64,000 nucleotides of DNA from a virus, in the IMG/VR virus record IMGVR_UViG_3300046171_000208, positions 37,694 to 101,693 of that record. The stretch is one strand, 5' to 3'. The translations under genes and the position numbers were made by a program. The notes beneath the pieces are model-generated. The model saw nothing but the letters and a program-made list of their open reading frames with translations. It was not told where the DNA came from and ran no database searches. Below, piece by piece: positions 47,248-61,532 of the stretch; position 1 is the stretch's first letter, and every line of letters begins with the position of its first letter.

Positions 47248-47843
47248 CCCTACAAGAATTTAATCCAAGTTGGTACTTTCGATCTAGATTGAGTGATGAA
47301 GATATACAAAAAGTAAAAAATATTTTCGTATCATTTATAGATGATGATAATAATTTTCATAATCCACCACAATGGGGAGCAAATGTAAAAAGTTCTTTTT
47401 ATCATCCAAATAACGATAATCCTAAATGGGATTCTTTTTTAGAAATTTTAAAACCATTTACTGATGAATTTATTAGTATAATGAAACCTAAAATGCCAGT
47501 AGAAGTATTTGCACAAGAAGGATGGGTCAATAAGTATTCGTGGCAATATTTTCAAGAATATCATACACATGCATCCCCAGACATTAATTTAAGTATGATA
47601 TATTTTTACAAGGTAAAAAAGGATGATGAGTGTTTTAAATTTGTAACTGATCATTCATTGTATTCATCAAATGGATATAATAAGATGTTTCAAATTCCAA
47701 ATAGACCAGTAACAGTTCCAAAGGTGAATAGCGGTGATGTGATTTATTTTCCATCATTTTACCCTCACTTTGTCACTCCACATTTCTTAAAAGGATTTGA
47801 AAGAGTGACTTTTAGCACTAATTTTTTAATTGTGCCAGTTTAG
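47244..47843 (+). CDS. 2OG-Fe(II) oxygenase (Oxy_5-like)
   Basis: 199 residues. EYHTHASPDINLSMIYFY gives HxH, followed by SGDVIYFPSFYPHFVTPHF with distal His residues and Arg in FERVTFSTNF. N-terminal half helical with WGANVKSSFYHP. ATGA overlap with the previous gene. The stop is followed by the dyad promoter at 47834. Confidence 0.85.
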   Translation: MTLQEFNPSWYFRSRLSDEDIQKVKNIFVSFIDDDNNFHNPPQWGANVKSSFYHPNNDNPKWDSFLEILKPFTDEFISIMKPKMPVEVFAQEGWVNKYSWQYFQEYHTHASPDINLSMIYFYKVKKDDECFKFVTDHSLYSSNGYNKMFQIPNRPVTVPKVNSGDVIYFPSFYPHFVTPHFLKGFERVTFSTNFLIVPV

Positions 47844-47887
47844 AAAGTGTCTAATATGATTACAATTGTATTTTCATATGCTATAAT
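47834..47887 (+). promoter_or_regulatory. Dyad-type early promoter (offset by 2 bp)
   Basis: Dyad GCCA-N10-TGTC (47834-47851), then TTACAA and TATAAT (47882-47887). Same dyad as in seven further promoters between 50983 and 61532, but 2 bp closer to the -10 box. Drives the helicase gene. Confidence 0.65.
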
Positions 47888-47908
47888 AAAGACATCTAAA
47901 GAACACTA

Positions 47909-49084
47909 ATGCAATTAAGACCTCATCAAGAGCAAGCAATCCAATCAATGTTGGACAATGACAAAGGACAAATCATTGTTCCTACTGGTGGTGGTAAGAC
48001 TATCTGTATGATTATGGATGCTGTCAAGCAGTTGGAAACCTATGGCACGATTGTTGTAGTTGCACCACGCATATTACTTGCAGAGCAACTATCTCACGAA
48101 TTTATGGAAATCATTGATGAGAAGTATAATGATGTAGAAGTAATGCACGTTCATAGTGGTAAAGTCAAAGGTGTATTCAGCAGCACTAATCCATTTCAGA
48201 TACAACAGTTTGTAGAGTCAAACTTGGGTGGTAGAAGAATTATATTTACAACTTATCATTCATTACATAGAGTTGAAGAGTCAGGTATCAATGTTGACAC
48301 TATCTACTTTGATGAAGCACATAATTCAGTTCAGAGAAACTTCTTCCCTGCTACTGATTACTTCTCAATACACGCACAAAGATGTTACTTCTTTACAGCA
48401 ACACCAAAGCATAGTCGTTCTGTAAAACCAGGTATGAATTGGACAGAGGTATATGGTGGTGTTATATGTCAAATACCTGCACCAAAGTTAGTCAAGCAAG
48501 GTTATATTTTACCACCTAAAGTTAAGGTGTATCGTTCAAGAATACTCAAGAAAGATGAGTTAGTTGCAGACAGAGATAATGAGCAAATGATTGGTGCTAT
48601 AGATAATCTTGACAAGGACAAAGTATTAATTTGTGCCAAGTCAACGAGACAAATTGTAAGTCTAATATCACAGACAGATTTTGTACATCAACTTGCAATT
48701 CGTGGTTACTCTTATATGTTTATCACAGCAAAGACAGGTGCTATGATTGATGGAGAGAAGGTCGATAGAGAGACTTTCTTTAATACTCTTAATGAGTGGG
48801 GTAGAAACGGAAAGAAGTTTGTTGTACTTCATCACAGCATACTTTCAGAGGGTATCAATGTCAATGGACTTGAAGCAGTATTGTTTATGCGTTCTATGGA
48901 TTACATAGGTATTAGTCAGACTATTGGTAGGGTTATTCGTAAGGGTAATGCTGACAAAGTATTCGGACTTGTATGTGTACCAGTTTACTCTAATGTTGGT
49001 ATTACTACCGCAAGAAAGGTTGAAGCAGTAGTCGATACTATCTTCAACAAAGGTCAAGCAGCTACAACAGTTATCACAAGATGA
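47909..49084 (+). CDS. Superfamily 2 DEAH helicase
   Basis: 391 residues. Q-like start LRPHQEQAI, Walker A in VPTGGGKT, Walker B DEAH, motif III FFTATPK, and motif VI QTIGRVIRKG. Similar to UvsW/type-III-restriction-type helicases but shorter than T4 UvsW. Possible roles: fork remodelling, recombination, or work with the nearby methyltransferases. It overlaps the oxygenase at 49081 by 4 bp. Confidence 0.88.
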   Translation: MQLRPHQEQAIQSMLDNDKGQIIVPTGGGKTICMIMDAVKQLETYGTIVVVAPRILLAEQLSHEFMEIIDEKYNDVEVMHVHSGKVKGVFSSTNPFQIQQFVESNLGGRRIIFTTYHSLHRVEESGINVDTIYFDEAHNSVQRNFFPATDYFSIHAQRCYFFTATPKHSRSVKPGMNWTEVYGGVICQIPAPKLVKQGYILPPKVKVYRSRILKKDELVADRDNEQMIGAIDNLDKDKVLICAKSTRQIVSLISQTDFVHQLAIRGYSYMFITAKTGAMIDGEKVDRETFFNTLNEWGRNGKKFVVLHHSILSEGINVNGLEAVLFMRSMDYIGISQTIGRVIRKGNADKVFGLVCVPVYSNVGITTARKVEAVVDTIFNKGQAATTVITR

Positions 49085-49644
49085 TTAACATACCATTTTC
49101 ATCTGATTTTTTTACACTTTTCCCTGCACCTAACGCAGAGGAATTAATATCCTCTATTGAAGAGATATGTAAAACTAAAAAAGTGGATAATGATTTTCGT
49201 GATTGGGGTAAGACTTGTAGAGTTGATACAATACCATTAATATGGCAAGACTTCCTTGACTTATATCAACCTAGTATTAAAGTTTTTTGTCATTTATTCA
49301 AAAAAGATATAAAATACACAATGTATAACCCTTGGCTTAATTTATATAAAAAGGGTTATTATCAAGAAATTCATGACCACGCAGGTCATGATATATCAAG
49401 TGTTTTCTTTGTAAATACTGGTGTTGATTTTGGTAAATTCTTTTTTTATGATAGACATTCTTGTAATTTTTCAGATAATTATGAGGATTTTATTTCATAC
49501 GAAAATCAGAAAAGACCACCTATAAAAAGAGGAGATATTATGTTTTTCTCTAGTCATCTCTTACATGGAGTGACTTCTCACGAAAATGATGAGATAAGAA
49601 AAACTCTCTCTGTAAATTTTAACATTGATGAGGTAGTAAAATGA
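49081..49644 (+). CDS. 2OG-Fe(II) oxygenase (Oxy_5-like)
   Basis: 187 residues. YYQEIHDHAGHDISSVFFVN gives the HxH pattern, then KRGDIMFFSSHLLHGVTSHE with the distal His and Arg in IRKTLSVNF. N-terminus IPFSSDFFTLFPAPN. Overlaps both the helicase and the nucleotidylyltransferase, so it is in the same transcript. Confidence 0.85.
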   Translation: MINIPFSSDFFTLFPAPNAEELISSIEEICKTKKVDNDFRDWGKTCRVDTIPLIWQDFLDLYQPSIKVFCHLFKKDIKYTMYNPWLNLYKKGYYQEIHDHAGHDISSVFFVNTGVDFGKFFFYDRHSCNFSDNYEDFISYENQKRPPIKRGDIMFFSSHLLHGVTSHENDEIRKTLSVNFNIDEVVK

Positions 49645-50078
49645 GTGCAATTATTTTAGTTACAGGTGGATTTGACCCCATACATAGTGGTCACATCGCA
49701 TATTTTAAAGATGCAAAGGAGTTCAATCCTAGTGTGCCATTGTGTGTAGGATTAAATTCTGATGAGTGGTTAATTCGTAAGAAAGGAAAGTATTTCTTAC
49801 CAATGGCAGAGAGAAGATTGATAGTCAAAGAACTCAAACCAGTTGACTTGACGATTACTTATGATGATACAGATAATACATCTTGTATGGCAATCCATAA
49901 GTGTTTACAAATGTATGATAGAGTGATATTCTGTAATGGAGGAGATAGAGTTGACACCAATGTTCCAGAATATCTTAAATTTAAAGATAATGAAAGAGTT
50001 GTCTTTGAGTGGGGTGTCGGTGGCGATAATAAGATGAATAGTAGTAGTTGGATTTTGAATGAATTTTTAAAACGATGA
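49641..50078 (+). CDS. Cytidylyltransferase-like nucleotidyltransferase
   Basis: 145 residues. The HxGH motif appears as GGFDPIHSGHIAYF (residues 9-22), with a later PMAERRLIVKEL resembling the second nucleotide-binding helix. The family (TagD/RfaE C-terminal) transfers CMP or AMP to small phosphorylated or sugar substrates. The lack of a clear ISSTxxR-type C-terminal motif (SSSWIL instead) leaves the substrate open. ATGA overlap with the next methyltransferase. Confidence 0.8.
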   Translation: MSAIILVTGGFDPIHSGHIAYFKDAKEFNPSVPLCVGLNSDEWLIRKKGKYFLPMAERRLIVKELKPVDLTITYDDTDNTSCMAIHKCLQMYDRVIFCNGGDRVDTNVPEYLKFKDNERVVFEWGVGGDNKMNSSSWILNEFLKR

Positions 50079-51037
50079 GAGACACAATTTTATTTGGAGA
50101 TTGTCGAGAGACACTCAAAGAGTTTGATGAGAAGGCAAGGATGTGTGTAACATCCCCACCATACTACGGACTTCGGGATTATGGTGGAGAAGATAATCAA
50201 ATTGGTCAGGAACAAACCCCAGAGGAATTTATTGAACAATTAGTATCAGTATTCCGAGAGGTAAAAAATGTTCTTACTGATGACGGAACTTGTTGGGTTA
50301 ATCTTGGGGATAGTTACTATAACTATCGACCTGGTAAAGGTCAAGCACTTGTTAAACAATCAGTATCTAAAACGAAACAAGACCTACCAGATAAATGTGC
50401 AAAGAGAGCAAATAAATTAGAAGGATTGAAAGAAAAAGATTTGATTGGTATTCCGTGGCTGTTCGCATTTGCAATGAGAAATGATGGATGGTATCTACGT
50501 CAGGATATAATATGGCATAAACCAAATCCAATGCCAGAGAGTGTGAGAGACAGGTGTACGAAGTCACACGAATATATATTTTTATTCAGTAAAAACAAAA
50601 AGTATTACTACAATAATGAAGCAATCAAAGAACCCGCAAAAGATTGGGGAACAAGAGATAGAACAAACGGAAAATATCACAACGAAGGAACAGGACTCCA
50701 ACCGCATAGTGGACTTACAAAATCATATCCAACAAAGAATAAACGCTCTGTCTGGTCAGTAACAAACAAACCATATCGTGAAGCACATTTTGCAACATAT
50801 CCACCTGACTTGATTGAACCTTGCATACTGGCAGGGAGTGAGATAGGAGACATTGTACTAGACCCATTTATGGGGTCAGGTACTACAGCAGCAGTCGCAA
50901 AGGCACTTGGTAGAGATTATATTGGATGTGAACTCCACGAAGACTATGGTAACTTAATTCAGAAGAGAGTGCAAGAATATAAACCAGTTCAAGAAGTGGC
51001 ACAAGAACCTTGCATTAACATCTTGGATATTATATAA
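50075..51037 (+). CDS. DNA (N4/N6) methyltransferase, SPPY type
   Basis: 320 residues. Catalytic motif TSPPYYGLRDYG at residues 26-37; SPPY is typical of N4-cytosine enzymes, though some act on adenine. SAM motif I VLDPFMGSGTTAAVA is near residue 270. DIIWHKPNPMPESV is a family hallmark. Ends over the regulated promoter at 50983. Confidence 0.88.
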   Translation: MRDTILFGDCRETLKEFDEKARMCVTSPPYYGLRDYGGEDNQIGQEQTPEEFIEQLVSVFREVKNVLTDDGTCWVNLGDSYYNYRPGKGQALVKQSVSKTKQDLPDKCAKRANKLEGLKEKDLIGIPWLFAFAMRNDGWYLRQDIIWHKPNPMPESVRDRCTKSHEYIFLFSKNKKYYYNNEAIKEPAKDWGTRDRTNGKYHNEGTGLQPHSGLTKSYPTKNKRSVWSVTNKPYREAHFATYPPDLIEPCILAGSEIGDIVLDPFMGSGTTAAVAKALGRDYIGCELHEDYGNLIQKRVQEYKPVQEVAQEPCINILDII

Positions 51038-51038
51038 T
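50983..51038 (+). promoter_or_regulatory. Dyad early promoter
   Basis: Dyad half-sites ACCA and TGGC 10 bp apart, then 32 bp to TATAAT (51033) with TTGCAT 17 bp before it. Total 56 bp, the standard length of this promoter type. It lies inside the end of the methyltransferase gene. Confidence 0.65.
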
Positions 51039-51063
51039 AGAAGAGTAAACAAAGGAAAAACAA

Positions 51064-51204
51064 ATGCGTTGTAAAGTAGAACTCTATGTAGCAGGTCAAA
51101 CTTTTACTGAAGAAGTAAGAGCAGTTGACTATCAGGAAGCAAGACAAGTAGCACTTGCAAGAAATCCTAACGCTAGGATTATAAGTGTAACAGCAGTATT
51201 TTAA
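51064..51204 (+). CDS. 46-residue conserved phage protein
   Basis: CKVELYVAGQTFTEEVRAVD and YQEARQVALARNPNARII form a small alpha/beta protein I recognise from T4-like cyanophages. A good AAAGGAA ribosome site precedes it. Coupled by TAATG to the next gene. Function unknown. Confidence 0.7.
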   Translation: MRCKVELYVAGQTFTEEVRAVDYQEARQVALARNPNARIISVTAVF

Positions 51205-51467
51205 TGGCAAGAAAAGTTAATTATCAAACTTCTTGCCCTACCACATTCCCCTCTTTGTTAGATGCCAAAGTTGGTCAACCAACTGGTTATGTAACAAAGG
51301 ATGGTTCGTGGGCTGCAGTTCCATCAAATGGTAGAAAATTTGCCATTGTTCATAATGGTATCATTGAACACTTCTCAAAGAATTTTGAATGTGCTATGAT
51401 ATACATACAAAAAGAATTAAAAAAGGAGAAGAGAAATGCACGATCAAAACTCAATCGATCAGAGTGA
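51204..51467 (+). CDS. Small conserved hypothetical protein
   Basis: 87 residues. Central part TGYVTKDGSWAAVPSNGRKF and VHNGIIEHFSKNFECAM; basic C-terminus (KKEKRNARSKLNR). Start overlaps the previous stop. The end overlaps the following gene by 32 bp. Function unknown. Confidence 0.6.
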   Translation: MARKVNYQTSCPTTFPSLLDAKVGQPTGYVTKDGSWAAVPSNGRKFAIVHNGIIEHFSKNFECAMIYIQKELKKEKRNARSKLNRSE

Positions 51468-51739
51468 AACTTCTGCTGAAAAATATCAGCGAGCGTTGGA
51501 TTTATTTACTGAATCAGTCATGAAACCTGATGCTGATTTGCGTGGTTGTGCATATAATCAAGGTTGTTACGATGACCTGATGGAAATAAGAGAACACGTT
51601 TTAGAATACCTTAAAAACTTTAAAAGAAGTCACACATCATACCTATGCAGATGAGAGTGATGAATTAGAGACAGCAAAATTAATTGAAGTAAAAGATAGA
51701 GTTGCAGTTGAGACAAAACCATTTACAAAATGGCGGTAA
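51436..51739 (+). CDS. Small conserved protein, apparently frameshifted
   Basis: The first 72 residues (MHDQNSIDQSETSAEKYQRA ... LEYLKN) run to an early stop at 51654. Removing one A from CTTAAAAAC (about 51610-51622) restores LEYLKTLKEVTHHTYADE and a further 28 codons to TAA at 51737. The intact protein would be about 100 residues. Strong GGAGAAG ribosome site. Confidence 0.55.
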
Positions 51740-51811
51740 TGTGTTCATACTAATACATTAATATTAGGGTAAATCTATTAAAATAAATAATGTGAACTAT
51801 AAAATTACCTT

Positions 51812-52111
51812 ATGTTATCTACCCAATACCGACTAAGATTAGAAGCAATTTGCAAGGATATTGCTTCGGGAACAGAAGTTTCATTAGAAGATATGATATG
51901 GGCAAACAAATTGGGAAAGGCGAATACAAGTGCAAGAGGAATGTTAAACAAAGCAAGGAAAATATCAAGGAATCCGAATGATTCTTTTTTGAATAACTTG
52001 AATATTGGAGACCCCGATTCAAGTAATCACAGAAGGGGTTTCAATAGTCCAGATGAGATTGTTGATTGGTTCAAACCTGACCGTTCAGACGATTGGAGAC
52101 AGAGAGATTAG
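51812..52111 (+). CDS. Conserved cyanophage protein
   Basis: 99 residues. LSTQYRLRLEAICKDIASGT, then SLEDMIWANKLGKAN and GDPDSSNHRRGFNSPDEI; this order is familiar from T4-like cyanophages. Helical first half. Function unknown. Confidence 0.7.
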   Translation: MLSTQYRLRLEAICKDIASGTEVSLEDMIWANKLGKANTSARGMLNKARKISRNPNDSFLNNLNIGDPDSSNHRRGFNSPDEIVDWFKPDRSDDWRQRD

Positions 52112-52177
52112 GAGTAGGTATATGTGCGTAGGCATAAATTTTTGTTAATCGTTTATGTAAATGTGTTGGATTAAACA

Positions 52178-52185
52178 CTAAATAA
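52178..52185 (+). promoter_or_regulatory. Late-like box CTAAATAA
   Basis: A late-type box in the gap before the gene at 52264. It overlaps a possible ATG at 52185. Confidence 0.45.
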
Positions 52186-52263
52186 TGGTAGAATTAGGGA
52201 GAACAAGATGCACTAAAACTTTTTGTATTATGGTTCAAATTAGTCCAACTATTATTCGATAAA

Positions 52264-52407
52264 ATGCACAACTTAATTCCACTAAATCAACTCAACGGTT
52301 ATAATGATGATAACGATTTAATCACAGAATACTATGAGTGCTTAATCGAATGTGACGATAAACAATCAGAGTGTAAAAGAATATGTAAGGAGGTTTTAAT
52401 TCGTTAA
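52264..52407 (+). CDS. 47-residue Cys-rich small protein
   Basis: HNLIPLNQLNGYNDDNDLIT then YYECLIECDDKQSECKRICK, with four cysteines spaced as in a small metal- or disulphide-stabilised helix pair. The frame is open upstream for about 25 codons (ALKLFVLWFKLVQLLFDK), which would be a membrane helix; a +1 shift from the ATG at 52185 could join it. Ends with no terminator. Confidence 0.6.
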   Translation: MHNLIPLNQLNGYNDDNDLITEYYECLIECDDKQSECKRICKEVLIR

Positions 52408-52476
52408 TTGTCGTTTACCGAGTTAGCAAATGTATCAATTCTACCATCCACCTTAAGTAAAATAGAATAAAAAAAC

Positions 52477-52505
52477 AACCCCTTGACTTTTTAAGTCAGG
52501 GGGTT
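52477..52505 (+). terminator. 13-bp hairpin containing a promoter
   Basis: AACCCCTTGACTT / AAGTCAGGGGGTT with a TTT loop (one G-T pair). On the minus strand it is followed by a T run, on the plus strand only by TTATAATT. The TTGACT -35 box lies in its left arm. Confidence 0.65.
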
Positions 52506-52511
52506 TATAAT
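52483..52511 (+). promoter_or_regulatory. Sigma70 promoter inside hairpin
   Basis: TTGACT (52483-52488), 17 bp, TATAAT (52506-52511); 18 bp before the ATG at 52530, with GGAG in the leader. Confidence 0.75.
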
Positions 52512-52529
52512 TGGAGAAACAATTTAATA

Positions 52530-52706
52530 ATGATTAGTCCTTTGAGATATGTTCAAAATGTAAGAACTGTTTATAGCAGATTTTACCAGAAAAATATTAA
52601 GGAAGTCGAAGTGCAGTTTAATGATGAAGAACCTGCTTGGATTCCTTATGATACACTACTATCAATTATGTCAATTATGGGGATAGATGATGAAAGTATT
52701 ATTTAA
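52530..52706 (+). CDS. 58-residue hypothetical protein
   Basis: ISPLRYVQNVRTVYSRFYQK then EVQFNDEEPAWIPYDTLLSI. A small alpha/beta protein with its own promoter. The end overlaps the next gene by 17 bp. Function unknown. Confidence 0.6.
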   Translation: MISPLRYVQNVRTVYSRFYQKNIKEVEVQFNDEEPAWIPYDTLLSIMSIMGIDDESII

Positions 52707-53008
52707 AATTAGAGAGTTTGCGTGGATGGTCGCAGACGAAATTGCTGATTGGTTATATCCATATCAGAAATAGATTGACACCAGAAGAACAGTTTGAAGT
52801 CAGAGTGAAAGACCCGATGAGTGGGGAACAATATATGATGGAAGAAATTATACAATCTCAAAATGAAAGGATAGAAAGATTACAGGATGAAATGATAAAT
52901 GTTCAGATGAGACTATCAGAACACGATGATAGATTTAAGACAAGAGTTAAGATTAAAAAGGATAGTTCATCTGTATCAGGAGACATCAAGAATATCTTTA
53001 ATTCCTGA
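52690..53008 (+). CDS. Coiled-coil protein, apparently frameshifted
   Basis: The start MKVLFKIREFAWMVADEIAD reaches a stop after 27 residues. Removing one A at CAGAAATAG (52765-52773) joins it to RLTPEEQFEVRVKDPMSGEQ and a long coiled coil (NERIERLQDEMINVQMRLSE), giving about 105 residues ending at 53008. Basic C-terminus. Confidence 0.55.
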
Positions 53009-53012
53009 TATA

Positions 53013-53020
53013 CTAAATAA
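53013..53020 (+). promoter_or_regulatory. Late-like box CTAAATAA
   Basis: A late-type box 23 bp before the ATG at 53044, standard spacing. Confidence 0.5.
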
Positions 53021-53043
53021 TTCTTAATATAACTTAAAACTTG

Positions 53044-53199
53044 ATGAAGGATAAGAAGGCAGCAAAGATATTGATTAAGAGAGCAAAAGCAAACCCAGAA
53101 TTATATACCGATACGGAAGTGAAATACGCAAGACTAATTAAACGAACTTTAAAACTTTCCAGTAATGAGCAACCAATCTCTGAAAATCAATCAAAATAA
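53044..53199 (+). CDS. 51-residue basic protein
   Basis: KDKKAAKILIKRAKANPELY then TDTEVKYARLIKRTLKL: a basic helical peptide, maybe nucleic-acid-binding. Overlaps the next gene by 35 bp. Function unknown. Confidence 0.55.
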   Translation: MKDKKAAKILIKRAKANPELYTDTEVKYARLIKRTLKLSSNEQPISENQSK

Positions 53200-53323
53200 A
53201 GACGGAACTTTTACCGTTGAATGGGATAAACAAGACCCCGAATGGAGTTGGATGAACAACTTGACATCCAAAGAAATTCAAGGTATCATGGAGAAAGCAA
53301 TTCACTTGGATAAGAACAAATGA
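53165..53323 (+). CDS. 52-residue hypothetical protein
   Basis: SNQSLKINQNKDGTFTVEWD then WSWMNNLTSKEIQGIMEKAI. The DGTFTVEWD strand plus C-terminal helix suggests a tiny folded domain. The stop overlaps the following ATG (53320). Confidence 0.6.
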   Translation: MSNQSLKINQNKDGTFTVEWDKQDPEWSWMNNLTSKEIQGIMEKAIHLDKNK

Positions 53324-53705
53324 TAGACGAATTTCTAGTCCATCACTTAATAATTTAAAGGACTCTATCGAGGATGCACTCACAGTAGAATCCCCACAGG
53401 ATATACTGGATTGTATTATGTTGACATTGAAAAGAAATTCACAATACCATCGTGTATGTGCAAGACATTCAAAGGAAGTCTTGGATTTATTGTATGGTGT
53501 GGACAAGAAAAACAATGTAGTTGAAATCAATGCAGGTGCGTTGGATGATGATTACCTTACAGACCCTAAAAAATGGATAGATTATACTGAATTACCAGAT
53601 AGTGGTAAGGTACAAACTGAACCAGAGAATACAGGTCTTATGGATGAGGATGAGTTGATAGCAAATGGTTATCAACTGACCGATACAGGATGGGTTAAAG
53701 CATAA
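53320..53705 (+). CDS. Hypothetical protein, apparently frameshifted near start
   Basis: The ATG at 53320 gives only MIDEFLV then a stop. Two frames on, an uninterrupted run (SLNNLKDSIEDALTVESPQD, then ILDCIMLTLKRNSQYHRVCA) continues to 53705. It either starts at the internal ATG 53418 (95 residues) or is a frameshifted product of about 126 residues; the upstream part looks coding. Acidic C-terminal half ending TGWVKA. Confidence 0.55.
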
Positions 53706-53939
53706 TGGCATTATCCGAAACTGTCAAGTCATCTTTAAGGGATGCACAGGAAGATTTAAAAAATGCTCTTGCGTGTGCAGCCGAGAACAGAGAAACCATT
53801 TATCAGTAAAAATATTGCTGATATGATAGCACAGATTGAAAATGTAATTGATGCAAGTGAAGTAATAGACCAAATAGAACAAAGGAAGGATGGGGATAGT
53901 GGTATGTTTGGTACATTTTTCAATCACGATTTACCATAG
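53705..53939 (+). CDS. Hypothetical protein, apparently frameshifted
   Basis: ALSETVKSSLRDAQEDLKNA stops after 34 residues. One base removed at AACAGAGAAACC (53786-53797) leads into KPFISKNIADMIAQIENVID and DQIEQRKDGDSGMFGTFFNH ending at 53939, about 77 residues. It shares the SLxDAxEDL style with the preceding gene. Confidence 0.5.
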
Positions 53940-53941
53940 TT

Positions 53942-54118
53942 ATGAAGTATCATTTGTATGACGAAAATTATGACCATAAGGGAGATTTCCAGACACTACA
54001 GGAAATGAGAAATTACTTGTGTGAATGGAAATATGACAATAATGATAGAAGTTATATGGATGATACCTTTGATTTTATCAAATCTATCAGATGGCATTGG
54101 GATTTAACCGAACATTAA
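53942..54118 (+). CDS. 58-residue hypothetical protein
   Basis: KYHLYDENYDHKGDFQTLQE then FIKSIRWHWDLTEH: a small aromatic-rich protein with a TLQEMRNYL helix. No ribosome site beyond TAGTT. Function unknown. Confidence 0.55.
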   Translation: MKYHLYDENYDHKGDFQTLQEMRNYLCEWKYDNNDRSYMDDTFDFIKSIRWHWDLTEH

Positions 54119-54132
54119 ATTATCATTAAAAA

Positions 54133-54661: not shown

Positions 54662-54690
54662 TGGACATTATACCGAAAGTGTGATATAAT
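54662..54690 (+). promoter_or_regulatory. Sigma70 promoter, leaderless
   Basis: TGGACA, 17 bp, TGA-TATAAT (54685-54690). The ATG at 54697 is 6 bp after the -10 box. Confidence 0.7.
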
Positions 54691-54696
54691 ATCTGT

Positions 54697-55254
54697 ATGG
54701 CATCAACAGCATTAAAAGCTTTAACAGCAACTACAGGAACTCGAACTGATTGTTGGAACACCCCACCAGAGTTTGTAGGGGATGTACTAGAATTTTTCGA
54801 TAACAAACTAGATTTAGACCCCTGTTGTAATGACATCGAGAATCCCAATGTACCCGCTAAAAAACTTTTCGACGAGAAAATAAATGGTTTAGCACAAAAT
54901 TGGGTTGCCGAGAGTGTGTTTATGAATCATCCATATAGTAATAGTAAAGAGTGGATACCCTATGCAGTATCACAGTATCAACTAGGACACGCAAAAGAGT
55001 TAGTCCTGTTGATTAAGATGGATGTATCGACAAGATGGTGGAAGTCAATATCAACCTATCCATTTCTAGCAATTAATAAAAGATTAAAATTTGGAAGTGG
55101 AAAAGGTGCAGCACCTTTTCAATCTGCAATAGTTTATCTTGGCGATAGACTTGGTAAGTTTAGACGAATATTCGGTAAATATGGAACCCTTTATATGCCA
55201 GTAATTGAAGTGTCACAAGAGAAGTTGAATCCTCTTGTAGAAGTGCTATATTAA
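54697..55254 (+). CDS. dam: Phage DNA N6-adenine methyltransferase (Dam-like)
   Basis: 185 residues. The catalytic motif is NHPYS (residues 77-81), a variant of DPPY. WNTPPEFVGDVLEFFDNKLD at the start and LDLDPCCN are typical of the phage Dam family. FGSGKGAAPFQSAIVYLG is the conserved end. It probably methylates adenine in phage DNA to avoid restriction. Leaderless mRNA. The C-terminus ends in a TATATT sequence. Confidence 0.88.
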   Translation: MASTALKALTATTGTRTDCWNTPPEFVGDVLEFFDNKLDLDPCCNDIENPNVPAKKLFDEKINGLAQNWVAESVFMNHPYSNSKEWIPYAVSQYQLGHAKELVLLIKMDVSTRWWKSISTYPFLAINKRLKFGSGKGAAPFQSAIVYLGDRLGKFRRIFGKYGTLYMPVIEVSQEKLNPLVEVLY

Positions 55255-55261
55255 TAGTGGG

Positions 55262-55350
55262 GAAACAAAATCGGCATCCAATGGGTTAGGTGCAAGTCCT
55301 AACTATCTCCGAAAGGATAAGGGAAATCATTGAGTGTAAGTCCGTATTTT
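55262..55350 (+). ncRNA. Possible structured RNA leader
   Basis: The gap between genes contains GGGTTAGG-TGCAAG-TCCTAAC (a 6-bp stem), then a small TATC..GAAA..GATA hairpin, then a second GTGTAAGTCC resembling the first GTGCAAGTCC. The dense pairing and lack of coding suggest a folded leader for the gene at 55383. The GGTGCAAGTCC hairpin recalls one cobalamin-aptamer stem, but the rest of that aptamer is not recognised. Confidence 0.35.
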
Positions 55351-55382
55351 TGTTTCTCGCACCTTATTAACAAACAACTCTT

Positions 55383-55826
55383 ATGTCAACCAGAGCAAGA
55401 ATAGGTATTCAATTACCTGATGATTCAATCCTTTCAGTATATCATCACTTTGATGGATACCCAGAGGGATTAGGTGTTAAACTTGTAGAACACTACAACA
55501 CTTATGAGAAAGTTACTGAACTTATAGATGGTGGCAATATGAGTAATTGCTATTCTGATAGTAAGTTTAATGTAGAAACAGGAGAGTTCACACCTATCGC
55601 TGACCCAAAACCTAGTTATTATGGTGGGGATAATGAAGAACCAGTATTAAGTAAGAACTTTGATGAGTTCACACGAATAGATTGTTGGCAAGAGTTTTCT
55701 TATGTGTTTGTCACAGACAGATGGGTAGCATACTCTACCGAACAAAAGTTTAATGAAGATTATAGTAAGATTACCAGAGTAATTGTCAAGGAGGTAGAAA
55801 TCCCAAAAAAGCAGACAGTTGAATAA
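55383..55826 (+). CDS. Conserved phage protein (STRARIGI family)
   Basis: 147 residues. STRARIGIQLPDDSILSVYH then HFDGYPEGLGVKLVEHYNT is a pattern widely found in phages and some bacteria, of unknown function. The C-terminus is beta-rich with DRWVAYSTEQKF. Its end carries the dyad of the next promoter, and a terminator follows. Confidence 0.75.
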   Translation: MSTRARIGIQLPDDSILSVYHHFDGYPEGLGVKLVEHYNTYEKVTELIDGGNMSNCYSDSKFNVETGEFTPIADPKPSYYGGDNEEPVLSKNFDEFTRIDCWQEFSYVFVTDRWVAYSTEQKFNEDYSKITRVIVKEVEIPKKQTVE

Positions 55827-55869
55827 GTGGCACAAGGGGGTGGTCAACCCCCTTTTTTATTGCTATAAT
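55814..55869 (+). promoter_or_regulatory. Dyad early promoter with embedded terminator
   Basis: Dyad GACA-N10-TGGC (55814-55831), 32 bp, TATAAT (55864). The -35 TGGTCA is in the terminator loop at 55841-55846. Leader AAAGAAACACCCCTATG follows. Length 56 bp, identical to the other members. Confidence 0.7.
55836..55858 (+). terminator. Terminator inside promoter
   Basis: GGGGGT / ACCCCC stem with loop GGTCA and six Ts, ending the gene at 55826. Confidence 0.85.
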
Positions 55870-55895
55870 AGATGTATAAACAAAGAAACACCCCT

Positions 55896-56352
55896 ATGGA
55901 AAAAGTAATCGGAGAATCAGTAAGAGAAACAAATCAAGACATTTCTAAACAGATATGTTGATGACTATTGCAAAGCACTTAATGAGAACTACAAACAGGA
56001 CACAATTAGAAGTCTTGAGCATAACTTGAAGCGTGACCCTGATTGCACTTATTCAGCAAATCAACTTGTTAAAATTATGCAAGGTAAAGCAAACCTAGAC
56101 AGATTTAGATATAGTGAAGGTAAGAAGTATTTAAAAGTGACCAGAGAAGAGTATAACGAAAAAACTGGTTATTGGAGAGATACTACAGTTCACGCATTTG
56201 TAGATAAAAAAACTGGGGATGTATTCAAACCTGCATCTTGGAAAGCACCCGCAAAACACGTTAGATTTAGTTTTTGCAACAAAAAAGACTATGTTGTTCT
56301 AACTGACCCTAGATGTGTAGGATGGGCGGGTGGATACTTATACTTAAGGTAA
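55896..56352 (+). CDS. Conserved cyanophage protein, apparently frameshifted
   Basis: EKVIGESVRETNQDISK stops after 21 residues; one base removed at TCTAAACAGATA (55944-55955) joins RYVDDYCKALNENYKQDTIR and on to VHAFVDKKTGDVFKPASWKA and GWAGGYLYLR, about 151 residues. VHAFVDxKTGxVxKPASWxxP is a motif I know from cyanophage proteins of unknown function. Confidence 0.6.
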
Positions 56353-56353
56353 A

Positions 56354-56494
56354 ATGAAATTATCAATCAGAGAAAAACTAATTTTTATTGTTTCATTTCT
56401 ATGGATGCTACATTGGGGAACTAATATAGCAAACCTAATTATTGACACATTCTTGTTAAAAAATGGTGTCAGATTATTACCATTTGGGTTATAA
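56354..56494 (+). CDS. 46-residue membrane protein
   Basis: KLSIREKLIFIVSFLWMLHW then NIANLIIDTFLLKNGVRLL: a basic N-terminus followed by one or two hydrophobic helices. Probably inner-membrane. Its end carries a TGTCAGA box 29 bp before a TATAAT (56503) that may drive the next gene. Confidence 0.5.
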   Translation: MKLSIREKLIFIVSFLWMLHWGTNIANLIIDTFLLKNGVRLLPFGL

Positions 56495-56583
56495 TTTTAC
56501 TATATAATCTCGTATGTGTTAATATAAGGTCAATAGAGAGAGAATAATATTAGTTTAAAAGCAAACTACTATCACTCAAACAA

Positions 56584-57501
56584 ATGCAACTCAAACACAT
56601 TGAACATCCCGAAGATACTATTCTTACTGGAGACTTATCAGCAATTAACTGGTTTACTATACAGGGAAAGGTATCTCTTAAAATAGATGGTTGCCCTGCT
56701 ATTGTATGGGGAACTAATCCCGAAAATGATAAATTTTTCGTAGGAACTAAATCAGTATTCAATAAAGTCAAGAAGATGGTATGTCACTCTCACGAAGAGA
56801 TTGATATATTATATGCAGATAAACCTGACTTGGCAAATAAATTACACTCTTGTTTTGATAATCTAATCAGAACAGATACAATATATCAGGGAGACTTACT
56901 TGGTATCGGTGGCGATGACTATTACCAACCGAATACAATAGGTTATCTATTTCCATTTAAGATAGACCATAATATTATTATTGCACCACACACAGAGTAT
57001 ATCGCTACAGGTAACACTTTAGTTGATACTCACGCAATACCATTAGACCATACACTTGAAACTGACCTTGATAAAGTCTTGTATGTTCAATGTGATGCAA
57101 TCGCTAAATTTCAAGAGTTTGTATATGATAGATGTCAGTTTGCAAAACAAATGGCAACTATGGTGGAATTTGTAGATAATAAAAAAGCACAAGAATTAAA
57201 GAAAACTATTAATCATTGTATTCGTATTGGAACAAGAATGACAGATGATGTGATTGATACTATATCAGATTCACATAATATTGACCCTAACTTGATGAGA
57301 CTTTGGAAGTTAGTCAAGTCAATCAAAATGGATGCACTCAAAAGATGTGAACACAATGCTTGGTGGTCAACATTTAATGACGATGGCGAAATAGATGGCG
57401 AAGGTTATGTAATGTGGAATAGGTGGGGTATATACAAATTAGTTGATAGGGATGAGTTTAGCAGATTAAACTTCCTTACAAGTGGAGCTTGGGACAGTTA
57501 A
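56584..57501 (+). CDS. KxDG protein, nucleotidyltransferase/ligase-like (DUF6267-like)
   Basis: 305 residues. KVSLKIDGCPAIVWGTNP contains K33-x-D-G36, the adenylated lysine motif of ligases, followed by FFVGTKSVFNKVKK and later YQGDLLGIGG. I associate this order with phage DUF6267 proteins. It may be a DNA/RNA ligase relative, but other ligase motifs are not clear. The C-terminus ends in a dyad element of the next promoter. Confidence 0.6.
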   Translation: MQLKHIEHPEDTILTGDLSAINWFTIQGKVSLKIDGCPAIVWGTNPENDKFFVGTKSVFNKVKKMVCHSHEEIDILYADKPDLANKLHSCFDNLIRTDTIYQGDLLGIGGDDYYQPNTIGYLFPFKIDHNIIIAPHTEYIATGNTLVDTHAIPLDHTLETDLDKVLYVQCDAIAKFQEFVYDRCQFAKQMATMVEFVDNKKAQELKKTINHCIRIGTRMTDDVIDTISDSHNIDPNLMRLWKLVKSIKMDALKRCEHNAWWSTFNDDGEIDGEGYVMWNRWGIYKLVDRDEFSRLNFLTSGAWDS

Positions 57502-57548
57502 ATATGTGTCACAACCTACCACGCATAGGTTATAAAATGCCCTATAAT
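57493..57548 (+). promoter_or_regulatory. Dyad early promoter
   Basis: GACA-N10-TGTC (57493-57510), 32 bp, TATAAT (57543-57548), no clear -35. It overlaps the end of the upstream gene. Leader ends TCAAGAAATCCCTTATTATG. Confidence 0.7.
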
Positions 57549-57575
57549 AGAGAAGTAATCAAGAAATCCCTTATT

Positions 57576-57863
57576 ATGAACTCAGGAACACCAAGCACAG
57601 CACTCAACGATATGCTTACAGATTTTGTGAAGTATGTTGATAGTTTCTATGGAGTAAATGACCCTTTATATCCTATGATAAATCAGGAGACAAAACAACC
57701 ATTAAACACAGTTGACATCTATAGTGCTACTCAATTCTATCTTTCACAATGTAGTGATGAGAGAGTCACTAATTGCACTTGGGGAGACGGAGACTCTCTT
57801 GACAGAGAAAGAGTCAGAGACATTCTACTTGAAGAGTACAACTACAAGTTTGTAGGAGAGTAA
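57576..57863 (+). CDS. Conserved small phage protein
   Basis: 95 residues from the ATG at 57576. The longer frame from 57489 is rejected because the promoter lies inside it. NSGTPSTALNDMLTDFVKYV then SATQFYLSQCSDERVTNCTW. Function unknown. Coupled to the following gene with 1 bp gap. Confidence 0.6.
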   Translation: MNSGTPSTALNDMLTDFVKYVDSFYGVNDPLYPMINQETKQPLNTVDIYSATQFYLSQCSDERVTNCTWGDGDSLDRERVRDILLEEYNYKFVGE

Positions 57864-57864
57864 G

Positions 57865-58093
57865 ATGACAAAAATCAGAGGAGACTTTCCACAGACACCT
57901 CTTAAGTTGACCTTGAGAGAAGAACAGATAAGCACTATTCTCTATTGTTTAGAGGGTTATGTGCAAGGTAACGATGATGACAGAATTGGTAGAAGAGTTA
58001 GACGAAATCTTTGAAGTCTTGGAAACAACTGTTGACAAGTTTTACAACAAGATTGAAAAGGCAAGAGCAAAACAACCAGAGGAGGAATGGTAA
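57865..58093 (+). CDS. Small helical protein, apparently frameshifted
   Basis: TKIRGDFPQTPLKLTLREEQ stops after 49 residues; one A removed at GACGAAATC (58001-58012) continues as RRIFEVLETTVDKFYNKIEK to 58093, about 75 residues. Alternatively the second half is a separate gene from an ATG near 57975 (MTELVEELDEIFEVLE). The fused reading fits the TLRxxQIxTILYxLEGYV pattern I know from cyanophages. Confidence 0.5.
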
Positions 58094-58344
58094 TGGCAAA
58101 ACACACACTTGAATTAGATGATATGGAATTGACAGCACTCATCATACACCTTGAAGGTCAAAATGAAATAATGTGTGAGTCAAGATTGAACTGTAGTAAC
58201 CCAAGTGAAACACCTGATAGAGAAGAAGTGCTATTGAATATGGTATATGAAAAGGCATTTACAATGGGTTGGGATAAACACATAAACCCAAAGGTCGATT
58301 TTGATTTAATTAAAAACCAAGATAGGATTTACAAGTACAAATGA
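58093..58344 (+). CDS. Small acidic helical protein
   Basis: 83 residues from the ATG at 58093, after AGGAGG and overlapping the previous stop. AKHTLELDDMELTALIIHLE then MCESRLNCSNPSETPDREEV. The pattern is a helical hypothetical; function unknown. ATGA overlap with the zinc-finger gene. Confidence 0.6.
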   Translation: MAKHTLELDDMELTALIIHLEGQNEIMCESRLNCSNPSETPDREEVLLNMVYEKAFTMGWDKHINPKVDFDLIKNQDRIYKYK

Positions 58345-58577
58345 CATCATCAAGTTATCAGGATTGGACACACGAAGTACTTAACACACACTTGAGAGTT
58401 TCAAGTATCATACCAACACGCACAGTTGACAAGTACACTAGGGCAGGGCGATATGGTAAAACCATAGTTTGCCCAGAGTGTAACAAAGTTGCCACAGTAT
58501 ATCACTTTAGTTGGTCAGCACTCGGTTGTCAAGAGTGTGGTGCTATGGTAGAAAAAAATCAATGGAGATTATTATGA
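58341..58577 (+). CDS. Small zinc-finger protein
   Basis: 78 residues. Four cysteines as CPEC (44-47) and CQEC (63-66), 15 residues apart, form a likely zinc ribbon, with VDKYTRAGRYGKTIV before it. May bind nucleic acid or protein. Conserved in cyanophages to my recollection. Coupled by ATGA to its neighbours. Confidence 0.7.
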   Translation: MTSSSYQDWTHEVLNTHLRVSSIIPTRTVDKYTRAGRYGKTIVCPECNKVATVYHFSWSALGCQECGAMVEKNQWRLL

Positions 58578-58741
58578 ATTTAGACAATTACGAACTAACA
58601 ACTATAGATTACGCATTAAAGTATTACCTTAAAGAAAATCCAAATCTTGATGAGGAAGATATTGAGTGGTGTAATTTAGTAAGAGAAAAAGTGGATAGCA
58701 TTATAATATCACAGGCAAAGTATGATATGGAATGTGGTTAG
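58574..58741 (+). CDS. Small acidic hypothetical protein
   Basis: 55 residues from the ATG overlapping the previous stop. NLDNYELTTIDYALKYYLKE then EEDIEWCNLVREKVDSIIIS. Helical; function unknown. It ends 1 bp before a dyad promoter. Confidence 0.55.
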   Translation: MNLDNYELTTIDYALKYYLKENPNLDEEDIEWCNLVREKVDSIIISQAKYDMECG

Positions 58742-58796
58742 GACAGTTAAATTACTGTCACACCACATTGATATATGGTAAAATTTTTGCTATAAT
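58742..58796 (+). promoter_or_regulatory. Dyad early promoter
   Basis: Perfect GACAGT-N6-ACTGTC palindrome (58742-58759), TTGATA (58768), 17 bp, TGC-TATAAT (58791-58796). Confidence 0.75.
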
Positions 58797-58811
58797 AGTA
58801 TTAGTTACAAA

Positions 58812-59312
58812 ATGATTATGACCCCCGAAGAAAAGTATCGTGACCTCTACGAACAAATGTATGACCTATGTGACGAACAGGGTTGGGGAGACCCATTCTC
58901 TTATGCAAGGTCAAGAGAAATCTATATGGCAGGTTTACTTGGTCATAAAGTTGCAGATGATTATTCTGGGGAAGATGCAATAGATGAAGATGGTGGATGT
59001 GAATACAAATCTACCATAGGTAAGAGTGTCAATGGAACTTATAATGGTATAAGTGTTCAAGATGATTGGGATGACCAAGCTAGGTATATCATAGAGGATA
59101 AAATTGGTAAGTATGAAAACCATTATTATGCAAGATTTGATGGTGGTAGAATTGCAGAGGTATGGAAGTTAGATGCTAACAACGTACTAAAGATTTTATT
59201 ACCGAAGATTAAGAAACAGTTTAATGAAGGTACATCACACAAGAAAGACCCTAGAATAGGGGTAAGTATCAGTACAAAACAAATCAAGGAATATGGTACA
59301 AGAATTAGATAG
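58812..59312 (+). CDS. Candidate endonuclease (ExK) next to methyltransferase
   Basis: 166 residues. The segment DYSGEDAIDEDGGCEYKSTI holds Asp55/Asp58 and Glu64-x-Lys66, the order of a PD-(D/E)XK site. EYKST is frequent in type II restriction enzymes. KYENHYYARFDGGRIAEVWK could be the following strands. It overlaps a DNA methyltransferase gene by 20 bp, which supports an R-M-like pair. No family was recognised outright, so this remains a candidate. Confidence 0.5.
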   Translation: MIMTPEEKYRDLYEQMYDLCDEQGWGDPFSYARSREIYMAGLLGHKVADDYSGEDAIDEDGGCEYKSTIGKSVNGTYNGISVQDDWDDQARYIIEDKIGKYENHYYARFDGGRIAEVWKLDANNVLKILLPKIKKQFNEGTSHKKDPRIGVSISTKQIKEYGTRIR

Positions 59313-59868
59313 TGGTAAGTTAATGTTCTCAGGTGGTAACAACGATGAGTGTTACACACCTGACTATGGTGTCAAACCTATTCTCAAGTATATTCCAGAG
59401 GGTGCTATAGTCTGGTGTCCTTTTGATACAGAGGAGAGTGAGTTTGTCAAGCAAATATCAAAACAGAATGAAGTTGAATACTCACACATATCAACTGGTC
59501 ATAACTTCTTTGATTATGAACCTGATGAGTGGGATGTAATGGTATCTAATCCACCTTTTACCAATAAGAGAAAGTACTTTGAGAGAGCATTATCACTTGG
59601 CAAACCTTTTGCCTTGATAATGACAAATACTTGGTTGAATGACTCAGCACCAAAACAACTATTCAAGGATAAGGACTTACAGTTGCTTATGTTTGATAAG
59701 AGAATGAAGTTTATTAGTCCAGATGGTAGAGACAATGATAAGATAACATTTAGTAGCAGTTACTATTGTTATAACATACTACCAAAACAAATAGTAATGG
59801 AGGAGTTGGATGTGCCACCTAAAAAAGTGTCCACTAAAGGTAGAAGTCAAGCAGTTTTACCACTATAA
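59293..59868 (+). CDS. DNA adenine methyltransferase, NPPF type
   Basis: 191 residues, AAGGA ribosome site. The catalytic motif is SNPPFTNK (residues 85-92). DECYTPDYGVKPILKYIPEG at the start is the SAM-binding region as found in phage adenine methylases. The end overlaps the TATAAT of the next promoter (stop TAA is within it). Functional partner probably the gene at 58812. Confidence 0.8.
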   Translation: MVQELDSGKLMFSGGNNDECYTPDYGVKPILKYIPEGAIVWCPFDTEESEFVKQISKQNEVEYSHISTGHNFFDYEPDEWDVMVSNPPFTNKRKYFERALSLGKPFALIMTNTWLNDSAPKQLFKDKDLQLLMFDKRMKFISPDGRDNDKITFSSSYYCYNILPKQIVMEELDVPPKKVSTKGRSQAVLPL

Positions 59869-59869
59869 T
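59814..59869 (+). promoter_or_regulatory. Dyad early promoter
   Basis: GCCA-N10-TGTC (59814-59831), 32 bp, TATAAT (59864-59869) which contains the stop codon of the methyltransferase. Leader AAAGAGAACCCCTATG. Confidence 0.65.
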
Positions 59870-59893
59870 AGTAATATAACAAAGAGAACCCCT

Positions 59894-60145
59894 ATGAAAA
59901 TCTCATCTGACAAACAACTTAAGAGAGACATCAAGTATCTCAAGAAACAACTTGACGATAACAAAGATGCAATTGATGAAATCCTAGAACACATTGAAAA
60001 AGTGGGTATAGGAAGTGCAGAGTATTTTTGCGAGGAGTTCGTATTTATCCCTGACGATGAAACACCAGAACAAGTTGCAAGACTACACGACCCACTATAC
60101 TTTGACATATCTGAATTTAATTACCACAACTGGGAGGGAAACTAA
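59894..60145 (+). CDS. Small helical protein
   Basis: 83 residues from the ATG after the CCCCT leader. KISSDKQLKRDIKYLKKQLD is a coiled coil, then YFCEEFVFIPDDETPEQVAR and FDISEFNYHNW. Function unknown. Coupled to the next gene (TAATG). Confidence 0.6.
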   Translation: MKISSDKQLKRDIKYLKKQLDDNKDAIDEILEHIEKVGIGSAEYFCEEFVFIPDDETPEQVARLHDPLYFDISEFNYHNWEGN

Positions 60146-60375
60146 TGACCACAAAAACAAGACAAAACATTTGGATTAACAACAAAGAGAGTTTTTCATC
60201 AAAGTTGAAGGAAAAGAACTTCGAGTCAACGAATATGGAGACAGATTACATAGTCTCATAGACTGACTTAGGTTGGGATTACCAAAGAATGAGTTGTAGT
60301 GGTAGAGAAGTCTATGACGAAATACAGCAACTTCTTGGTACGATTACAGAAAACGAAGTTTTTATGGAGATTTAA
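60145..60375 (+). CDS. Small protein, apparently frameshifted twice
   Basis: The ATG frame stops after 38 residues. A consistent product appears if a GA duplication near 60183-60196 and one T near 60258-60268 are removed: TKTRQNIWINNKEFFIKVEG, then LRVNEYGDRLHSLIDDLGW and GREVYDEIQQLLGTITENEV, about 75 residues ending at 60375. Every segment looks coding and fits a small folded protein. Confidence 0.5.
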
Positions 60376-60376
60376 G

Positions 60377-60805
60377 ATGACACAATTTGAATATTACTCT
60401 CATAATAAAATGAGTCAAGTAAAAAAAGATTTTACACCCGCACTAATCAAAGAACTTAAATCATTCTTGGTTGAGAGAGTGGTTGATAATATGTCAACCG
60501 AAGACTTGGTTCAGTATGTCACAGATGACCTTGACGATATGTATAAGAATATGGCAGATGAGGAATTTCTCAATGACGCAAAAAACTACTGGGATGATGG
60601 ATTTGACGATGTAGTTGAAGAAATCAGAGAGTATGCTGATTGTGATTTCAAAAAGGACAGGAGAGAAGATTTCCTTGATAGTCTATCAGAGGGTAAAGAC
60701 CTTGATGACTATGGTAGCAAAGTTGATGCACTTGTAGATAGTATGGGTGTGACAGATGAAGATGTGTCCACTACACACAGACGCAAGGACTTGGACTTGC
60801 TATAA
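60377..60805 (+). CDS. Acidic protein of a small repeated family
   Basis: 142 residues from the ATG at 60377. FLVERVVDNMSTEDLVQYVT is followed by very acidic helices (DDGFDDVVEEIREYADCD). The motif resembles those in the proteins at 62062 and 62537, so these look like paralogues. The end overlaps the next promoter's TATAAT. Function unknown; the charge could suggest DNA mimicry, unproven. Confidence 0.6.
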   Translation: MTQFEYYSHNKMSQVKKDFTPALIKELKSFLVERVVDNMSTEDLVQYVTDDLDDMYKNMADEEFLNDAKNYWDDGFDDVVEEIREYADCDFKKDRREDFLDSLSEGKDLDDYGSKVDALVDSMGVTDEDVSTTHRRKDLDLL

Positions 60806-60806
60806 T
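60751..60806 (+). promoter_or_regulatory. Dyad early promoter
   Basis: GACA-N10-TGTC (60751-60768), 32 bp, TGC-TATAAT (60801-60806), lying inside the end of the upstream gene. Leader CAGGAGAAACCCCTTATG. Confidence 0.7.
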
Positions 60807-60833
60807 AATAGTATAACACAGGAGAAACCCCTT

Positions 60834-61019
60834 ATGTCAAAAGAAATGTTATTCTTATGTGATGTGTACGATGCTTGGTTATCCAAGAACAAACTACCAC
60901 ATAGATGTGCAAGTGAGATACTTTATGGTGCTGACACTAAAGGCAGACTCACAGTAAATCAATCCTACTGGTTAGAGGACTTTATCTCTACTTGGGATGT
61001 TATCTCACAGAATACTTGA
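60834..61019 (+). CDS. 61-residue hypothetical protein
   Basis: SKEMLFLCDVYDAWLSKNKL then HRCASEILYGADTKGRLTV and WLEDFISTW. Compact helical protein. Good GGAG ribosome site in the leader. Function unknown. Confidence 0.6.
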   Translation: MSKEMLFLCDVYDAWLSKNKLPHRCASEILYGADTKGRLTVNQSYWLEDFISTWDVISQNT

Positions 61020-61020
61020 T

Positions 61021-61185
61021 ATGATTGATAAACTTAATGTATCAGTTTCCTTTACAGGCGATGAACTGTATGAAACTATCAAACTTTATGACATATTGAG
61101 AGATATGGACTTTGAGTTATCAGAAACACAAGTCGAAGTGTTTGAGAAACTACAAGACGCAGAAGTCAACGCAGGATTTTTCTAA
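61021..61185 (+). CDS. 54-residue hypothetical protein
   Basis: From the ATG at 61021: IDKLNVSVSFTGDELYETIK then LRDMDFELSETQVEVFEKLQ. Helical, acidic. TAATG coupling to the next gene. Confidence 0.55.
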   Translation: MIDKLNVSVSFTGDELYETIKLYDILRDMDFELSETQVEVFEKLQDAEVNAGFF

Positions 61186-61289
61186 TGGAACTTTTTATTT
61201 TATTGGGTGGTCTTTATGCCTTATATACTGTAGGTATGGCAATCGCCACAGAACTTGACTACAGAGAAGTAAACAGGAGAAGAAAATAA
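61185..61289 (+). CDS. 34-residue membrane peptide
   Basis: ELFILLGGLYALYTVGMAIA is one membrane helix, followed by a charged tail (ELDYREVNRRRK). Start and stop both overlap neighbours (TAATG at each end). Confidence 0.5.
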   Translation: MELFILLGGLYALYTVGMAIATELDYREVNRRRK

Positions 61290-61489
61290 TGGCAAAAAGA
61301 CAAAACTACAGAAGACCCTTTCACTACAGTATTGCAGGGATGCTAACTGATGAAGAAGTGCATAAGGTATGGGAGATAGTTGGCAATGCACTTGACCGCA
61401 ATGGTTTTGTAGATGCTGATGGAGAACTATCAATCAGAGTATATGACGAAACTCTTAAGAAAAATGTCAGAATTGTGCCAGAAGTATAA
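61289..61489 (+). CDS. 66-residue hypothetical protein
   Basis: AKRQNYRRPFHYSIAGMLTD then EEVHKVWEIVGNALDRNGFV. Basic N-terminus, possible small DNA-binding fold, not recognised. The end overlaps a dyad promoter. Confidence 0.6.
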   Translation: MAKRQNYRRPFHYSIAGMLTDEEVHKVWEIVGNALDRNGFVDADGELSIRVYDETLKKNVRIVPEV

Positions 61490-61532
61490 CTGTCACAACA
61501 GTAGTTGCAAACCAACCTATTTCGATTATAAT
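61477..61532 (+). promoter_or_regulatory. Dyad early promoter
   Basis: GCCA-N10-TGTC (61477-61494), TTGCAA (61505), 16 bp, TATAAT (61527-61532). Leader AAAGGAAAAACCCCTATG. Confidence 0.7.

Follow-up and report, generated by a model that had tools for sequence, protein, structure and literature searches.

A palindromic site in fixed register with the -10 box marks a family of putative early promoters in T4-like cyanophages

What is the role of a short inverted repeat that recurs at nearly one distance upstream of the -10 box of promoter after promoter? The question is raised by a stretch of viral DNA of 64,000 nucleotides (hereafter the window), which forms the final 64 kb of the 101,693-bp record IMGVR_UViG_3300046171_000208 (positions 37,694 to 101,693) and whose top matches are T4-like cyanophages of Prochlorococcus and Synechococcus. 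A sequence-only reading of the window had described a family of promoters in which a dyad, G(A/C)CA-N10-TG(T/G)C, stands in phase with TATAAT. Our results support a single phase-locked promoter family with a weak -35 region, as would be expected of an activator site. Judged from its sequence and placement, the dyad is probably bound by a dimeric transcription activator that is specific for its sequence.

The dyad and its register with the -10 box

The whole record contains eight exact copies of the dyad, all on the gene strand between 47834 and 61477, and each sits 30-32 bp upstream of TATAAT or TATATT; a ninth window dyad, at 50983, is an ACCA variant. The eight exact copies in the window compare with 2.24 +/- 1.49 in shuffled sequence, where 0 of 100 shuffles reached eight, and a second-order Markov simulation gave 1.57 dyads per strand, none of them phased to TATAAT. 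The rest of the 101.7-kb record, outside 47.8-61.5 kb, holds no exact dyad. In the whole record, then, the dyad is confined to this region and always stands in phase, and it is neither as common nor randomly spaced in late-gene DNA. With -12 assigned to the first T of TATAAT, the dyad centres were computed to lie at -51.5 to -53.5, in agreement with the position near -52 given earlier.

The site was refined using a two-block position matrix trained on 88 related loci together with the window record, with a mirror-image decoy as control. This gave a palindrome of 24 bp, TGTGMCASTT-N4-AASTGKCACA, with its centre near -52/-53 and its promoter-proximal half better conserved than the other. Downstream of the palindrome come a spacer of 31-33 bp with at most a degenerate -35 box, the sequence TGC-TATAATA and an A-rich leader. 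The start codon lies mostly 25-35 bp past the -10 box in family members, as does the first ATG at the nine window dyads, all of which have a TATAAT-type -10 (TATAAT or TATATT). Across the 88 loci, 56 of 149 exact dyads were located 30-33 bp from TATAAT. When the spacing prior was removed from the matrix, 372 of 415 distinct sites lay 30-34 bp from the -10 box, with a mode of 32 bp (212 sites), and gaps of 21-29 and 35-44 bp were represented by 1-4 sites each. Such rigid spacing implies contact with the polymerase.

The two halves of the palindrome do not covary: the four combinations of A/C in one half-site with T/G in the other were counted 113, 73, 97 and 89 times (Fisher p = 0.12), the G/C versus C/G pair is skewed against base pairing, and many sites place A opposite G or G opposite G. 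Each half-site thus appears to be read independently, as would be the case for a dimer on DNA, and this argues that the site is read as DNA and not as an RNA stem.

The -35 region had been described as weak or absent in many members. It is weak but not absent, since at least four of the six positions of TTGACA are matched in 39% of family members versus 15% of random positions. In addition, the spacer often holds a second signal. A hairpin that is GC-rich and 5 bp or longer lies between the dyad and the -10 box in 83 of 329 distinct spacers (mean of 8 in shuffled spacers), and in 67 of the 329 it is followed by a T run, giving an intrinsic terminator with the fixed spacing retained; the example in the window is at 55834-55855. 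Going by the sequence, a nested terminator of this kind would thus end the upstream operon inside the promoter of the next operon, a compact design that is of interest in its own right. Because the hairpin fills the -35 region, such promoters can hardly depend on a normal -35 box, which supports aid from a dyad-bound factor. As a separate observation, the loops of nested terminators often read TTGCACA, TTACACA or TTCACA and are -35-like.

For the window itself, the coordinates and spacings of the sequence-only reading proved correct: the units at 50983, 55814, 57493, 59814, 60751 and 61477 span 56 bp, measured from the first base of the dyad to the last of TATAAT, that at 58742 spans 55 bp, and at 47834 the dyad is 2 bp nearer to the -10 box. 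All the full dyads it listed are real, and its consensus fits them apart from 50983, which reads ACCA; one member, 55197, had been overlooked. At 56467 a TGTC half-site does stand 32 bp before TATAAT, and its membership in the family is doubtful. The features are as follows.

47831-47854, plus strand: dyad, core GCCAGTTTAGAAAGTGTC, 30 bp to the -10 box
47882-47887, plus strand: TGC-extended -10 box TATAAT, serving the UvsW-like helicase gene 47909-49084
50980-51003, plus strand: dyad with ACCA in place of G(A/C)CA, core ACCAGTTCAAGAAGTGGC, 32 bp to TATAAT 51033-51038
55194-55217, plus strand: overlooked dyad (55197), core GCCAGTAATTGAAGTGTC, 32 bp to TATATT 55247-55252
55811-55834, plus strand: dyad, core GACAGTTGAATAAGTGGC, 32 bp to TATAAT 55864-55869
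55834-55855, plus strand: intrinsic terminator in the spacer between dyad and -10 box, AAGGGGGTGGTCAACCCCCTT-TTTT
56467-56522, plus strand: doubtful member, right half-site TGTC only, 32 bp to TATAAT at about 56517, upstream of the DUF6267 gene 56584-57501
57490-57513, plus strand: dyad, core GACAGTTAAATATGTGTC, 32 bp to TATAAT 57543-57548; next ATG 57576 (95 amino acids)
58739-58762, plus strand: dyad, core GACAGTTAAATTACTGTC, 31 bp to TATAAT 58791-58796; next gene 58812-59312
59811-59834, plus strand: dyad, core GCCACCTAAAAAAGTGTC, 32 bp to TATAAT 59864-59869; next ATG 59894 (83 amino acids)
60748-60771, plus strand: dyad, core GACAGATGAAGATGTGTC, 32 bp to TATAAT 60801-60806; next ATG 60834 (61 amino acids)
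61474-61497, plus strand: dyad, core GCCAGAAGTATAACTGTC, 32 bp to TATAAT 61527-61532; next gene 61558-61866

The helicase gene is also preceded by a dyad site in P-SSM2, S-SKS1, P-TIM40 and AG-345-L05, and a DUF6267 gene of P-SSM7 likewise has a site upstream, which may be compared with the doubtful window site at 56467. Elsewhere in the window, at 52483-52511 and 54662-54690, promoter-like sites combine TATAAT with a good -35 box (TTGACT, TGGACA), a 17-bp spacer and no dyad; these are possibly a second, host-like promoter class.

Occurrence in phages and in host genomes

A search of the whole record and of related phages for the dyad at its fixed spacing found the element throughout the lineage. 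The exact phased pattern was present in 18 of 20 T4-like cyanophage genomes. With the matrix at a score of at least 18, eleven T4-like cyanophages (2.04 Mb) gave 207 sites and the decoy 1; matrix hits were present in all 12 of the T4-like cyanophages scanned, weak in P-TIM68 (only four weak sites). Genomes outside the training set behaved in the same way, with, at a score of at least 18, 21 sites in S-PM2, 22 in P-RSM4, 16 in S-SSM5, 31 in S-CRM01 and 17 in P-HM2, and none for the decoys. Counted over both strands at that score, Syn9 has 11 sites and P-TIM40 has 17, with a decoy count of 0. The freshwater phage S-CRM01 (NC_015569, 78-177 kb), negative by the exact pattern, retains the dyad and the 32-bp spacing at about 30 sites where the -10 box has drifted, for example to TATGCTA or TAGAATA. 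The sequence-only reading had remarked that the family was not one known from phages; as a sign of newness this does not hold, the element being present in essentially all T4-like cyanophages tested, Syn9 and P-TIM40 among them. The matrix scan found no site in T4, in the podovirus P-SSP7 or in the siphovirus PSS2.

Three further observations were made in these phages. In P-TIM68 (NC_028955, about 51.4-51.7 kb) the small-gene region lacks the dyad, and at least two of its genes are preceded by a repeated leader, ACTAAATGTTAGTTACCTCTAAATTGATnTATTA, which is possibly a replacement control element. S-TIM5 (NC_019516, 163.7-171 kb), a myovirus annotated outside Kyanoviridae, has seven variant dyads, often GTCAGT...CTGGCCCAATAGCCC, six of them with 33-bp spacing; the variant could reflect either a host factor used in common or a regulator passed from one phage to another. 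Additionally, P-SSM7 (NC_015290) carries a pair of dyads at 128366 and 131228, ahead of a large 'peptidase' gene and cobS, and comparably located pairs are found at 125-138 kb in Syn9, P-RSM4, S-SSM5 and P-TIM40, which suggests that, beyond the small-gene cluster, another pair of operons is conserved.

Host genomes gave a different result. The exact phased pattern was at control level in 26 cyanobacterial host genomes. With no more than one mismatch allowed, the full palindrome occurred once in 201 host-family (picocyanobacterial) genomes (about 0.4 Gb) versus 16 times in 1.3 Mb of phage DNA, and a matrix score of at least 25 was reached 0 times in 0.78 Mb of host DNA versus 137 times in 2.04 Mb of phage DNA, a comparison that is tilted somewhat toward phages by the derivation of matrix and palindrome from phage sites. 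The exact phased pattern, which was derived from the sites of the sequence-only reading and not from the matrix, gives the same answer. The sole near-perfect host palindrome, in Cyanobium CH-040 (G021:C1:114041), has no TATAAT at the family spacing. Binding by a host factor of the NtcA or CRP type, as had been put forward, finds no backing in the site. The NtcA box GTA-N8-TAC is in none of the nine window dyads nor in the refined consensus. The site also differs from the CRP-type TGTGA-N6-TCACA, in that the TGTGMCA half-sites stand N10 apart and the palindrome is 8 bp longer. That hosts lack the site speaks for a factor encoded by the phage, which would either arrive in the virion or be produced very early.

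Activation at the dyad and the alternatives

Strict spacing, a weak -35 box and a palindrome at -52 are together what a dimeric activator in contact with RNA polymerase would be expected to show. We infer protein binding, activation over repression, polymerase contact (perhaps through the C-terminal domain of the alpha subunit, alpha-CTD) and early timing. The dimer would sit near -52, a helical turn further upstream than a class II activator, and would aid a host-type RNA polymerase holoenzyme at a strong -10 box (TGC-TATAATA) with a weak -35; that the contact is made with the alpha-CTD is a guess. A single regulator could in this way switch on scattered short operons that hold small genes for host takeover and have leaders of about 15-25 nt, and with a terminator in a fifth of spacers the element would both start a small operon and insulate it from its neighbour. 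The sites lie at small-gene clusters of unknown function, a helicase and methylases, which makes it plausible that the genes under the dyad are early.

Several points weigh against an activator at the dyad. A centre at -52 is not optimal for activators of the CRP type, and some members have a fair -35 box (58742: TTGATA, 17-bp spacer). Since early genes are read at once, the activator must already be present. Finally, no cognate protein came to light: the families found in all nine element-rich genomes yet absent from P-TIM68 are 2OG-Fe(II) oxygenases and include no DNA-binding proteins.

Three candidates for the regulator were considered and rejected. The 2OG-Fe(II) oxygenase families were the only output of the co-occurrence comparison of P-TIM68 with the nine element-rich genomes and are not DNA-binding. 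GC147, annotated as 'DNA binding protein' and adjoining two conserved sites, proved by Pfam to be a pyrimidine-dimer glycosylase and also occurs in P-TIM68. A zinc-ribbon-like protein of 78 amino acids (58341-58577) is too patchy: it occurs in 3 of 11 genomes, and among the genomes compared P-SSM7 and P-SSM2 alone have relatives of it. The gene families shared with S-TIM5 contained no obvious transcription factor.

The same activator site might instead be bound by a host regulator that the phages exploit, as has been suggested for NtcA and demonstrated for PhoB at some cyanophage promoters, a possibility that overlaps with the activator reading except in the identity of the binder. A host factor would be there at injection, the site serves phages of both Prochlorococcus and Synechococcus, S-TIM5 has its variant at spacing 33 although annotated outside Kyanoviridae, and host PhoB binds promoters of S-PM2d (PMC10976474). 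Against this stand the three host comparisons above (control level of the phased pattern in 26 genomes, one palindrome in 201 genomes, no matrix hit in 0.78 Mb), a sequence that is not an NtcA, CRP or Pho box, and the lack of the site in P-SSP7 and PSS2. A host factor with a looser site than the matrix may exist, and we regard a host binder as possible but doubtful. Absence from hosts would also suit a phage repressor that closes early promoters later in infection, for which the palindrome is of operator type and early genes do require shut-off. However, the site stops 31-33 bp short of the -10 box and overlaps neither the -35, the -10 nor the start; a repressor would normally overlap the core promoter and would tolerate several positions, whereas the spacing is kept within about 3 bp across the lineage, and a weak -35 is unexpected in promoters that fire unaided. 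We therefore consider an operator unlikely.

Less probable again is a UP-like element contacted by the alpha-CTD alone. The position, about -41 to -65, does overlap the UP-element region and the centre of the dyad is A-rich, but the information-rich, G/C-containing outer half-sites and the strict symmetry are unlike A-tract UP elements, and the element is not used by hosts, whose polymerase is the same. The 3' end of the upstream gene is a frequent location of the dyads, and perfect palindromes are able to form a stem, as would suit a hairpin or processing site in read-through transcripts; the mismatched, non-covarying half-sites speak against such an RNA element, which would also leave the phasing to the -10 box without a reason, and we judge it very improbable. 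An artefact of chance or composition, conceivable in an AT-rich genome that is rich in TATAAT, can for practical purposes be set aside in view of the shuffles, simulations and decoys and of the replication in non-training genomes.

Within the activator reading, we tentatively propose a more specific form, in the knowledge that it could well be wrong: a dimeric activator encoded by the phage, which would enter with the virion or arise from basal transcription in the first minutes, would be common to T4-like cyanophages and, in variant form, S-TIM5, and would apply an Ogr-like geometry to early genes, with nested terminators separating tightly packed small operons.

Comparison with known systems

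P2 Ogr and P4 Delta are phage zinc-finger activators that act at an inverted repeat near -55, in promoters without a good -35 box. The dyad is similar in being an inverted repeat upstream of promoters that lack a good -35. It differs in its letters, TGT-N18-ACA with extra conserved bases compared with the Ogr/Delta consensus TGT-N12-ACA (PMC3931495), and in its genes, which are presumed to be early and not late. A conserved Ogr-like small C4 zinc-finger protein was not found, the zinc-ribbon protein of the region being the patchy one described above.

In T4 middle promoters, which use a MotA box at -30 together with AsiA, an accessory activator substitutes for the -35 element. The MotA box is a single site at -30, whereas here a palindrome lies at -52, and T4 has no matrix hit; the spacers of the family contain no MotA-like conserved box at -30 but only a degenerate -35. 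Cyanomyoviruses lack alt, modA, modB, motA and asiA, and their early and middle control has been called unclear (PMC2984593). Given T4-like cyanophages reported to be without Alt/Mod modification and MotA/AsiA (PMC2984593), takeover of the host polymerase is the question at stake. NtcA and Pho boxes have been discussed in cyanophages (PMC3037559, PMC10976474), and those promoters resemble the present ones in having an activator box upstream of the -10; neither the NtcA box (GTA-N8-TAC) nor the Pho box (direct repeats) matches the dyad.

A 24-bp site that is kept at fixed spacing in nearly every T4-like cyanophage and is missing from hosts offers a bait for the regulator in infected cells. Furthermore, the dyad can serve as a marker for early operons in uncultured phages and as a clean target for mutagenesis.

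Doron et al. 2016 reportedly described a novel regulatory element that controls early genes in Syn9 and P-TIM40 and is conserved among T4-like cyanophages. As far as the abstract goes, the phage group is the same, and the present dyad is likewise found in Syn9, in P-TIM40 and throughout the lineage. Among the texts citing that study, we found none that quotes its motif. Judged by phage group and distribution, it is very likely that the two elements are identical. To our knowledge, limited here to that abstract, neither nested terminators nor absence from host genomes has been attached to the element of Doron et al. 2016. The novelty of the present work is thus limited, in that the element has probably been reported already, and what is new is its anatomical detail.

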